NCBI RefSeq assembly: GCF_005233845.1 | Contig: NZ_SZQL01000002.1 | Span: 1 to 64,000, forward strand | From: Ilyomonas limi | Lineage (GTDB): Bacteria > Bacteroidota > Bacteroidia > Chitinophagales > Chitinophagaceae | Direction: 5' to 3' | Length of the DNA stretch: 64,000 nt | Part shown: positions 17,076-35,854 of the stretch, in pieces | How positions within the stretch are numbered: the first letter of the stretch is position 1 | Layout: every line of letters begins with the position of its first letter | The notes under the pieces: generated by a model | The model's database searches: none | What the model was told of the DNA's origin: nothing | Seen by the model: the letters and a program-made list of their open reading frames with translations, nothing else | Translations under genes and position numbers: made by a program

Positions 17076-17528
17076 CAGCAAAGAGATGGAAAAACACCTG
17101 CGGAAATTTTTCTTTTTGTAGGGACGAGTTGAGGTGCTACTATTAAGCTACTGGTGTAATTGAAGAATAAGGCTGGGCATTTACACGAGTACGTTTTTGC
17201 CGCAAGGAACGGGAGTTTTATCGAAAAGAAAACAGAGTTAAAAAAGGCTTCGCCCTCACAATTCATACGGTTTATATCAAAACAAATGATTGAAACCGCT
17301 GATGTGCTAATTTCTAAACCGCCAGCATTTTTAAACCGATGGATTAAAAGAGAATTTGTTTATTACATAACGAATTTCTCTACTTCCCTTTATTATATCC
17401 GCTCCTTTTTCTACCTGGTTAATCAGCGTAAAATCATTAACAGCAGGCTTCAAAAAAAACAAATGAAAAAGCAAGTGCACGGGCACTTGCTAAACAGGCT
17501 ATTGTATAATAGAATCTAAACGATCGTA
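17076..17528. other. Gap between the TMEM175-like gene and the ERF gene
   Basis: It contains the ERF terminator at 17464-17490. A 119-codon TTG-started frame at 17160-17519 runs straight through that terminator and resembles no family, so it is rejected. Confidence 0.6.
17464..17490 (-). terminator. Terminator of the ERF gene
   Basis: GCAAGTGC at 17471-17478 and GCACTTGC at 17483-17490 form a perfect 8-bp stem with a 4-nt loop; on the minus strand it is followed by TTTTTCATTTG and a further T run. Confidence 0.85.
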
Positions 17529-18125
17529 TTAGTTAGATGCAGCGGTTTCATTTACGATGCCCTGTAATTCAGCACGAACTTCTTTATTCAGTTTGAAGAA
17601 CTGTGCAACCTGGCTAATAGTAGTGGTTCCATTCTTCAATCGCTCTACAACCAAATCGTACTTTTTACTGTTTTTATCCAGCCATGGCTTTTCGGCTACC
17701 GTAGAAGCTTTTACTGCTGCTTCCTGCGGGTTGGCTGCACCGTGTGTAGCGCGGTTAGCATCATCATCTTCATCGAGGTTTAAGCCCAGCACAGCAGCTA
17801 AGGCATAACGGCGCATGTAAGAGATAACACTACCCTGGGCCTGCGGATCGTTTTTAAGCGGTTGCATGAAGTAATCGCACTGCATGTATTCGCCGCTTTC
17901 GCCGTGCATCAGTACTGTAGTTAAACCATTCTGCCCTGTAGGAAACTGCGTAAAAGACAACCCCGCATCCAGCAGCGGCTGCTTAATAGCTTCCAGAATA
18001 GTAGACAGCGTAGCATACTTGCTGTTGAAGAAAGGATTGGTAGCGTCTTTAGTAATCTTGCCAACGCTTGCATGAAATTGCTTCAACGCTTTCGCCAGAT
18101 TCACAATTGAGGGAGACTTTTCCAT
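17529..18125 (-). CDS. ERF-family single-strand annealing protein
   Basis: A 198-residue member of the ERF superfamily, recombinases that pair complementary single strands; best known from phages such as P22. The N-terminal region (LAKALKQFHASVGKI, then NPFFNSKYATLSTILEAIKQPL) and the core SVISYMRRYALAAVLGL segment at about residues 99-116 match the family signature of a Tyr-x-Arg-Arg-Tyr helix. The C-terminal region after about residue 130 is variable and ends in a helix. No integrase, terminase or other phage gene is nearby. A minus-strand TATATTTG element lies 36-43 bp upstream. Confidence 0.85.
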   Translation of the reverse strand: MEKSPSIVNLAKALKQFHASVGKITKDATNPFFNSKYATLSTILEAIKQPLLDAGLSFTQFPTGQNGLTTVLMHGESGEYMQCDYFMQPLKNDPQAQGSVISYMRRYALAAVLGLNLDEDDDANRATHGAANPQEAAVKASTVAEKPWLDKNSKKYDLVVERLKNGTTTISQVAQFFKLNKEVRAELQGIVNETAASN

Positions 18126-18160
18126 AAACTTACTTGACTTTAAAATTTTAATTGAATGAC

Positions 18161-18168
18161 CAAATATA
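18161..18168 (-). promoter_or_regulatory. Candidate -7 element for the ERF gene
   Basis: CAAATATA on the plus strand equals TATATTTG on the minus strand, matching TAnnTTTG, 36 bp before the ATG. Confidence 0.45.
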
Positions 18169-18332
18169 CTACATTTTACTAAAAGTATTAGCTATATTTT
18201 CATAAAGAAATCATAACGTTTTTAGAAGTTTAAAGCATTGAAAATTAATAAGTTTTGATAGAAAAGTTGCTTATAAATATTTGATTTTACAGTAATTATG
18301 AAATCAAAAAAATAGCTGTTATAAGTTAATGA

Positions 18333-18364
18333 TTATACACAGGTTATACACATAGTTTTCCACA
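18333..18364 (+). promoter_or_regulatory. Cluster of three DnaA-box-like 9-mers
   Basis: TTATACACA at 18333-18341, TTATACACA at 18344-18352 and TTTTCCACA at 18356-18364 all match the relaxed DnaA box TTWTNCACA in the same orientation at 11-12 bp spacing, close to one helical turn. They abut the uvrB stop codon and face 200 bp of AT-rich DNA. The match is seen directly; DnaA binding is inference. Confidence 0.5.
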
Positions 18365-18366
18365 AT

Positions 18367-20412
18367 CTATGCTTTCATTACATCCAACTCTTTCTGCAAT
18401 CTAAACATCTCATCGCGCAGTCTTGCCGCCTCAATAAAGTCCAGATCGCGGGCTGCTTTTTCCATTTGCTTCTTTGTTTGCTGCACTGCCTTTTCCATTT
18501 GGGGGATGGTTTTATATACCACCTGTTCTTCGGCAGCTACCGCAGGCTTCACAATATCTTCATCTCCCTGCAGTGCATACGGGCTTTTAGTGTCATAGCC
18601 TTTAATGTCCAGCACAGAGGTTTGTGCCATCACCTGCTCAATACTTTTCTTCACAGTTTTTGGCACAATACCGTGTTCCATGTTGTAAGCAATCTGTTTT
18701 TCGCGGCGGCGGGCTGTTTCATCCATTGTCCGCTGCATGCTTTCTGTTATCTTATCTGCATAAAAAATCACCAGCCCATCCACATTACGTGCTGCACGTC
18801 CGGCTGTTTGCGTAAGCGAGCGTTCATTGCGCAAAAAGCCTTCTTTATCCGCATCAAGGATAGCTACGAGCGATACTTCGGGTAGGTCTAAACCCTCACG
18901 CAACAAGTTTACGCCTACCAGCACATCTATTTCGCCAAGCCGCAACTGCCGTAATATTTCTACTCTTTCCAGCGTATCTACATCGCTGTGGATGTATTTA
19001 CTTTTTATATTAATTCTACCTAAATATTTGTCCATTTCTTCTGCCATACGCTTGGTAAGCGTGGTTACCAACACCCGGTCGCCCTTGGTCACGCGCTTGT
19101 CTATTTCATCCAGCAAATCATCAATCTGGTTTACACTTGGGCGCACTTCAATTGGAGGATCTAATAAACCTGTGGGTCGCACTACCTGTTCTACTACCAC
19201 ACCGCCGGTTTTTTCCAGTTCGTATTCGCCGGGTGTGGCACTTACAAATACCATTTGCCCCACCATACTTTCAAATTCATGGAAGTTGAGCGGGCGGTTA
19301 TCCAATGCACTGGGCAAGCGAAAGCCATAATCTACCAACACCAGTTTACGGCTTCTGTCGCCGCCATACATACCTGCTATTTGCGGTACGGTTTGATGGC
19401 TTTCATCCAGTATCGTCAGGAAGTCTTTAGGAAAATAATCCAGCAAACAGAATGGACGGCTGCCGGGTGTACGGCGATCAAAGAAGCGGGAATAATTTTC
19501 GATGCCATTGCAAAAACCCAGTTCGCGTATCATTTCCAAATCGTATTCCACACGCTCTTTTATGCGCTGTGCTTCTAACAACTTGCCGATGCTTTTGAAA
19601 TACTCTACCTGCATGCGCATTTCATCCTGAATTTCATAAATGATTTGCTGCTGCATATCTTTTGGCGCCAAGAACAAGTTAGCCGGAAAAATAGTAGCTT
19701 CTTCCATTCTGCTGATGCGCTTGTTGCTGCTGAGTTCAATAGACTCTATCTCTTCTATTTCATCGCCAAAAAAGGTAACGCGCAAACCATAATCTGCATA
19801 CGGCAGGTTCACATCCACTGTATCTCCTTTTACCCTGAAATACCCACGCGTAAAATCGCCTTGTGTGCGGGTGTATAACGAGTTGACTAACGAATGTAAA
19901 AAGCCCTGCCTTGAAATTACCTGACCTTTGCGAATGCGGATAATGCCATTTTCAAATTCCTTCGGATTTCCCAGGCCATAAATACAGCTCACACTCGCTA
20001 CAATGATCACATCGCGCCTGCCGGTAAGCAATTGCGCCGTAGCTTGTAGCCGCAGCTTATCCAGTTCCTGGTTAATACTCAAATCTTTTTCAATGTATTT
20101 GTCACTTACCGGTATATAAGCCTCCGGCTGATAATAATCGTAATAACTTACAAAGTAGCCTACTGCATTATCGGGGAAGAACTGCCGGAACTCTCCATAC
20201 AACTGTGCCACAAGTGTTTTGTTGTGGGTTAAAACCAGGGTTGGGCGTTGCACATTTTGAATAACATTTGCCATGGTGAATGTTTTACCACTACCGGTAA
20301 CGCCGAGTAAGGTCTGGTATCTTTCACCACTTACTATTCCTTCTGTTAATTGTTGAATAGCCGAGGGCTGGTCGCCGCTGGGCTGGTAAGGTGCTTTTAT
20401 CTGAAAATGCAT
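18367..20412 (-). CDS. uvrB: Excinuclease ABC subunit UvrB
   Basis: UvrB is the damage-verifying helicase-like subunit of nucleotide excision repair. The Walker A motif GVTGSGKT lies at about residues 36-43, the damage-sensing beta-hairpin region [12 protein letters not shown] at about 91-102, the helicase motif DESH follows in the middle, and the C-terminal UVR domain ([18 protein letters not shown]) that binds UvrC ends the protein. The length of 681 residues is typical. ATG 20412 is used instead of a TTG three codons upstream. It is divergent from the TetR gene and has a minus-strand TAATTTTG element at 20430-20437. Confidence 0.98.
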
Positions 20413-20719
20413 ACCACGCAATTTACTAACAAAATTAGTTTATAGAAAGGGCGAGAACAGGAATTAAGGAATGATTATTATGGATTGTAAATAATGCTCT
20501 CTGTGCCCGAAAGGAATTCCCATTTTATAAGTGAGAGGATAGCAAATTTCCTGCTTCTGCTGGTGTCCTTTACCGGCAAATAGTTATCTGTTAGCGAAGA
20601 ACACCAACAGAGGCGAAATATTTACCTCTTCCATATACATTAGTACAATCATTATCTGTAAAACATAATGCATCAGAAAAATCCTTATCTAAAAACCTAA
20701 TCATCTTTACTTTTGTAGT
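20413..20719. promoter_or_regulatory. Divergent promoter region of uvrB and the TetR regulator
   Basis: CAAAATTA at 20430-20437 (TAATTTTG on the minus strand) is a full -7 match 18 bp before uvrB. TACTTTTG at 20708-20715 is a full match on the plus strand ending only 4 bp before the TetR start codon. No gene lies between. Confidence 0.45.
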
Positions 20720-34903: not shown

Positions 34904-35854
34904 TTATACCGCCTGCATAAATGCATGTTTTATTATACCGCAAAAATTGGTCTGCAGCATTTTTTCAGCTACTAATATCATATTCTTAAATGCTGCTGCA
35001 TTAGAGATGCCATGACCAATAATTACGGGCTTGGCTACGCCTAAAACCGGCGTTCCGCCATAATTTTCGTAATGAAAGCGATGCAGGTATTCATCATTAT
35101 CCAGTTGCCGGTTAACAGCAATATCATAAAACGATTCTGCCATTTTTAGTACCACATTGCCGGTAAAGCCATCGCACACCATTACATCTGCTTTATCTTT
35201 AAACACATCTCTGCCTTCTACATTGCCCACAAAGTTGATGGTGGCATTTTCTTTCAATAACGGGTAAGTGGATTGCGCCAGCAAATTGCCTTTACCTTCT
35301 TCTTCGCCTACATTTAACAAACCCACTTTAGGGCTATCAACACCTAGTACATACTGTGCATACAAGCTGCCGAGTACGGCAAACTGGTTCAATTGTTCCG
35401 GTTTGCAATCGGCATTCAAGCCTACATCCAGCAGCAAGCCGGTAGCACCGTTGAGTTTGGGAACAATAGTAGAAATGGTGGGGCGAAGTACGCCTTCGAT
35501 AGCTTTGATGGTGTACATAGTGCCGACCAGCATGGCGCCGGTATTGCCTGCACTAAGAAAAGCATCAATTTTGCCGGAGGCTAATAAATGAAAACCAATT
35601 GCAATGGAAGATTGCTGTTTTTCTTTGAGCGCTTTGGTAGGATGCTCGTGGTAGCCAATCACTTCGGGCGCATGAATAAGCCGTATAGTGTTTGCAGGAA
35701 TGTTGTGTTCAATTAGTAATGGCTGCACCTGCTGCTCATCGCCTATACAAAATAGTGTTGCCGGCTGTGCACTGGCAGACAAATACTGATGTACGCCTTT
35801 AACGGCTTCAAGGGGAGCATAATCGCCGCCCATCATGTCCAGTCCAATATTCAT
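34904..35854 (-). CDS. plsX: Phosphate acyltransferase PlsX
   Basis: PlsX makes acyl-phosphate from acyl-ACP for phospholipid synthesis. The start NIGLDMMGGDYAPLEAVKG, the SAGNTGAMLVGTMYT segment, the LLDVGLNADCKPEQL motif and the VMVCDGFTGNVVLKM segment are family signatures. The length of 316 residues is normal. It is the last gene of the conserved DUF177-rpmF-plsX block; fabH, which often follows plsX, is not present here because a convergent carbonic anhydrase gene comes next. ATG 35854 is used instead of a TTG three codons upstream. Confidence 0.96.
   Translation of the reverse strand: MNIGLDMMGGDYAPLEAVKGVHQYLSASAQPATLFCIGDEQQVQPLLIEHNIPANTIRLIHAPEVIGYHEHPTKALKEKQQSSIAIGFHLLASGKIDAFLSAGNTGAMLVGTMYTIKAIEGVLRPTISTIVPKLNGATGLLLDVGLNADCKPEQLNQFAVLGSLYAQYVLGVDSPKVGLLNVGEEEGKGNLLAQSTYPLLKENATINFVGNVEGRDVFKDKADVMVCDGFTGNVVLKMAESFYDIAVNRQLDNDEYLHRFHYENYGGTPVLGVAKPVIIGHGISNAAAFKNMILVAEKMLQTNFCGIIKHAFMQAV

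Follow-up and report, generated by a model that had tools for sequence, protein, structure and literature searches.

Three tandem DnaA-box-like sequences between uvrB and an orphan ERF gene in Ilyomonas limi: a possible secondary DnaA site outside the origin

What might the replication initiator DnaA do, if anything, in the gap between uvrB and a gene for an ERF-family protein in Ilyomonas limi? Here, three copies of a DnaA-box-like 9-mer stand beside very AT-rich DNA, and the original prediction saw in them, with doubts, an origin-like layout that could instead be a titration site, a site regulating either neighbor, or a fossil replicon. The window, meaning the whole stretch of DNA that was analyzed, covers the first 64 kb of C12, a contig in a draft genome that holds 5,883,685 bases in 70 contigs. 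Its relevant features are these.

17470..17491, minus strand: terminator-like hairpin followed by a T run, downstream of ERF
17529..18125, minus strand: gene for an orphan ERF-family single-strand annealing protein of 198 aa (PF04404, E 3.6e-26; PHROG 2324, E 8e-45)
18126..18366, no strand: AT-rich gap between uvrB and ERF, 241 bp, 20.7% GC
18161..18168, minus strand: candidate ERF promoter, TATATTTG, fitting the Bacteroides -7 consensus TAnnTTTG, with no clear -33 TTTG
18333..18341, plus strand: DnaA box 1, TTATACACA
18344..18352, plus strand: DnaA box 2, TTATACACA, 2 bp after box 1
18356..18364, plus strand: DnaA box 3, TTTTCCACA, separated by 3 bp from box 2 and by 2 bp from the stop codon of uvrB
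18367..20421, minus strand: uvrB (NF003673, 1007 bits; TIGR00631, 972 bits), its 3' end adjoining the boxes

The layout is as it had been described. The box starts lie 11 and 12 bp apart, with GG and TAG as the intervening bases, and all three boxes run head to tail with the AT-rich DNA on their 5' side. Both uvrB and ERF are on the minus strand, and the boxes sit 2 bp past the stop codon of the first and upstream of the second. To the left, a ribosomal block recognized by eye (rplM, rpsI, rpsB and tsf, in reading frames at 496, 994, 1501 and 2624) is on the plus strand and is indeed transcribed toward the site. No RNA element was recognized here, the site having no Rfam match and a fold z of 0.19.

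The spacing is the first reason to take the boxes seriously. In excerpts of a study of E. coli, DnaA in vivo is described as preferring boxes 2 or 3 bp apart, with a close match in 15 of 16 ChIP regions (PMC11317965). The boxes in the window are same-strand double boxes with gaps of 2 and 3 bp, and the triple thus follows the E. coli rule twice.

The second reason is rarity. Single boxes, of course, are common; TTWTNCACA occurs in the window at chance density (12 matches against 10.8 expected), and in the whole genome 963 times, against 741 for the reversed pattern (totals only). Same-strand pairs of TTWTNCACA with a 2-3 bp gap, however, number only two in the 5.88 Mb draft, and these overlap within the window cluster. 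Pairs whose first box is TTATACACA, with gaps of 1-4 bp, likewise amount to two overlapping pairs found only at this site, against none in the control search of the same genome; widening the gaps to 0-30 bp adds five further pairs (control, one), none of them spaced by 2 or 3 bp. No pairs beginning with TTTTNCACA and having 2-3 bp gaps occur in this genome. When 613 kb of its DNA was sampled and genes were marked crudely as reading frames of at least 300 bases, three boxes within 40 bp were seen in one of 388 intergenic pieces, the window site alone. The suspicion that boxes might stand at chance density across AT-rich gaps was not borne out in the same sample, where 46 of 49 AT-rich intergenic pieces have no box, two have at most one per 40 bp, and the window site has three.

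The reading that we favor, with a probability of roughly 0.55, and favor over chance, is that the boxes form a lone secondary candidate DnaA-binding site outside the origin, either regulatory or titrating. The titration and regulatory alternatives of the original prediction are thereby the best reading that remains. From the boxes we infer that DnaA binds here. The genome's own DnaA scores above the family cut-off and carries what we take to be the usual domain IV signature. Cooperative binding to the three head-to-tail boxes is proposed because the 2 and 3 bp gaps match the preference of the E. coli protein. A small DnaA complex would then form directly behind uvrB, with the candidate ERF promoter lying 165-196 bp downstream, and would tune the transcription that enters or starts the ERF unit. 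Alternatively, the complex would sequester a small number of DnaA molecules from the origin; chromosomal boxes are reported to titrate DnaA in E. coli (PMC12371093).

The regulatory version needs, of course, something to regulate. ERF looks like its own transcription unit because it has both a promoter-like match, to a consensus given in an excerpt on Bacteroides promoters (PMC7366714), and a hairpin with a T run, although terminator-like sites in the region number two against 1.5 expected in shuffles. The boxes are far from this candidate promoter, which counts against a secondary site and makes a direct effect uncertain; any effect of the boxes on ERF is speculative. Also against a secondary site is that no such cluster is conserved near uvrB in 29 relatives, or upstream of ERF at 30 viral loci.

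The nearest precedent is found in the double boxes of E. coli, for example those upstream of nrdA, polA, purH and nrdD, which in the same excerpts are also same-strand, spaced by 2 or 3 bp and outside oriC (PMC11317965). Unlike these, the window site has three boxes in a row, lies past the end of uvrB and a long way upstream of a phage-type orphan gene, and is known from sequence. It is probably a site of a known kind in an unexpected place, and the finding is probably an ordinary one. If DnaA does bind, this would be a non-origin DnaA site that suggests that the 2-3 bp double-box rule extends outside E. coli. A more elaborate version, in which a captured phage annealing gene has come under the replication initiator, has little to recommend it as a probability; here, the three-box complex would act as a roadblock to, or a switch for, transcription that continues from uvrB into ERF, tying strand annealing to the replication cycle or to the level of free DnaA. 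Among the literature matches listed, no report of DnaA control of an ERF gene was recognized.

The strongest rival to a secondary DnaA site is chance, and it is a tentative one that we nonetheless hold live. Under this hypothesis, an 11-bp tandem duplication of one box, together with a chance third box in AT-rich DNA, produced a functionless cluster. Were the sites independent, only about 3e-5 triples would be expected genome-wide. Boxes 1 and 2, however, are identical and 11 bp apart, so that one may derive from the other by duplication. A single chance pair then suffices, and arithmetic from the 963 sites gives about 0.16 chance pairs with a 2-3 bp gap genome-wide. Pairs of the same form occur in 3 of 58 relatives, roughly the chance level by estimate, and the family therefore has no general enrichment of such pairs. 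What chance does not so readily deliver is two gaps that both obey the DnaA spacing rule, in a genome whose other AT-rich gaps hold few boxes.

Conservation, of course, would speak against chance. None was seen at the uvrB loci of relatives, all of them outside the source genus: two boxes within 100 bp, with flanks up to 1.5 kb, were found in none of the 29 examined (37 had been matched). Single boxes do occur at these loci, for instance 113 bp beyond the end of uvrB in L055, and the DNA 3' of uvrB differs in the 11 relatives where it was examined. Comparison of the gap in related species had been offered at the outset as a check on the origin, and its outcome goes against one. In three of the relatives (G010, G015 and G008; L031, L033 and L034), the gene directly 3' of uvrB encodes, judged by eye, a ParA-like ATPase.

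Considerably less probable than chance is that a fossil plasmid or phage replicon brought in both ERF and the boxes. The ERF gene itself makes such a history thinkable. Its domain match lies well above the curated cut-off (PF04404, 92.4 bits against 25), its PHROG match is annotated as Erf-like, which is phage-type, and it is rare, being found in 2 of 147 family genomes with its own included; the other copy is in DNA that appears phage-like by eye. Its nearest relatives are on viral contigs, the best at 61% over query residues 1-198, and a relative at 58% is on a contig of a metagenome-assembled genome with phage-like genes (by eye); matches in named phages (781 records) are all below 60%.

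At 30 viral ERF loci, each covering the 600 bp upstream of the match and its first 60 bp (with shorter upstream DNA in L138, L147 and L161), no box cluster was found and a single box was found in six. The triple is absent from the viral contigs that carry ERF relatives, and no cluster lies near the ERF relative on one plasmid stretch. Pfam matches for six proteins of the neighborhood are all cellular except ERF, no other mobile gene was recognized beside it, and a search for flanking repeats around the site gave nothing convincing. The phage-type orphan ERF lends the fossil replicon a little weight, and the viral and plasmid relatives, lacking the cluster, weaken it.

What, then, of the origin itself? 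That the site is a chromosomal origin, main or backup, where DnaA unwinds the adjoining AT-rich DNA, is very improbable, and this reading was rejected on skew, on trios, on conservation and on a better candidate near nadA. In its favor, the tandem boxes adjoin DNA of 21% GC, boxes beside AT-rich DNA being a feature of the basal unwinding system (BUS) as well, and among the 12 family relatives having uvrB and nadA on one contig, the two lie 15-285 kb apart in 11, although draft contigs bias such distances toward short values. Both genes were matched in 22 family relatives, and in one of them, G018, they are 797 kb apart.

An origin of the BUS type was sought as a box with three or more DnaA-trios after it on the same strand, within 16 bp. 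No strict match was found in 18101-18480, and no (.A.)x3 follows any of the boxes within 16 bp. The polarity is also opposite, since the AT-rich side is 5' of the window boxes, whereas the module upstream of nadA has trios and AT-rich DNA 3' of its box. Third-position GC skew, chosen as being less moved by gene direction, is -0.015 to the left of the site and -0.023 to the right, the same sign, with only 18 kb on the left. Cumulative all-base skew has a local maximum and no minimum near 15-17 kb. Beyond 20 kb on C12, 13 of the 14 stretches sampled have a negative all-base skew, and third-position skew is near zero in many. With only 18 kb of contig on the left, this test is weak alone. The original prediction looked to a skew minimum as the mark of an origin; there is no change from negative to positive here, and in two relatives (G018 and G022) the sign changes at nadA.

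The oriC of this genome is likely instead to lie upstream of nadA, at about 35.3 kb on contig C1.

G000:C1:35290-35642 (L109 10290-10642): candidate oriC upstream of nadA, with AT-rich DNA, trio repeats, a spacer and four TTATNCACA boxes

The four boxes, at 35338, 35373, 35439 and 35634, stand beside CTACTACTATTAGGAG, which, read on the other strand, gives a degenerate box with 2 mismatches, then a spacer of 4 bp and then TAATAGTAGTAG. In an excerpt of a report on the BUS, that system is a DnaA box, a spacer and DnaA-trios, the commonest trio being 3'-GAT-5' (PMC8287927); the module upstream of nadA has the same layout, box then spacer then trios. The route to nadA was through box clusters in single-contig relatives; G018 has seven boxes upstream of the gene. 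A search for nadA gave a match in 29 of 39 genomes, and the module stands upstream of it in 17 of 23 family loci (its own included), is absent from the other 6 of the 23, and is present in one of six loci from other families of the order. The slices were assumed to have a full 1500-bp flank, so that three cut by contig ends (L175, L183 and L187) may be misplaced.

The skew of two relatives is consistent with this placement. In G018, the third-position skew changes sign between 2.33 and 2.41 Mb, with nadA at 2.375 Mb and uvrB at 3.17 Mb; coarse sampling had put the minimum at 2.75-3.25 Mb, near uvrB, and finer sampling moved the change to nadA. In G022, the change falls between 0.53 and 0.68 Mb, with nadA at 0.639 Mb and uvrB at 0.36 Mb. 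(A box pair at 672 kb in G022 was considered as the origin of that genome and rejected, since it lies inside a coding reading frame.) A third relative, G004, is uninformative because its skew follows the gene strand; it gives no clear signal, and its flat all-base minimum also covers uvrB. The skew of this genome itself is weak (pooled over C1, +0.003 for plus genes and +0.042 for minus genes), and it shows no clear change less than 10 kb from C1:35 kb.

The trio 12-mer CTAYTAYTATTA is by itself no marker, as it occurs 14 times in the genome and its reversed control 32 times. Strict box-plus-trio matches number 17 in 600 kb of the genome's own DNA, so that the weight lies solely on the recurrence of the module upstream of nadA. 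Among the literature matches listed, none was recognized as reporting an origin at nadA. This by-product may matter more than the window site, as an origin candidate common to many genera of the family offers a clear place to study the initiation of replication.

Least probable of all is a DARS-like site that recharges DnaA, which was rejected on box orientation: three boxes are close together here as in DARS1 and DARS2, and the E. coli DARS1 adjoins uvrB too, in its promoter region (an excerpt of PMC5835720), but DARS needs head-to-head boxes I and II (an excerpt of PMC10380432), whereas all three window boxes are head to tail on the plus strand, no minus-strand box with at most one mismatch occurs in 18101-18450, and the site lies past the uvrB stop codon, at the other end of the gene from DARS1. 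Nor do gaps of 2 and 3 bp leave room for an IHF site between boxes, as in datA. In E. coli, DnaA controls the uvrB promoter (PMC6015884). Boxes adjoin uvrB in both species, at the promoter there and at the 3' end here, and control of the E. coli kind was rejected for that reason.

Other groups of boxes were met in these genomes. In this genome, a pair of TTATCCACA with a 1-bp gap (G000:C3:195501-195519; L106 1501-1519) lies about 244 bp upstream of a gene for a B12-dependent ribonucleotide reductase; E. coli DnaA binds upstream of reductase genes, according to excerpts of PMC11317965. Close pairs or clusters are upstream of smc in one relative (G034, L005 1501-1520) and of mraZ in two (G018, L102 1421-1655; G004, L098 1501-1519), and these boxes make a DnaA regulon in the family possible. 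In another genome (L004, G031:C1:1081335-1084356), eight TTWTNCACA occur within 3 kb around a gap flanked by an ABC transporter gene on one side and a phaC-like gene on the other.
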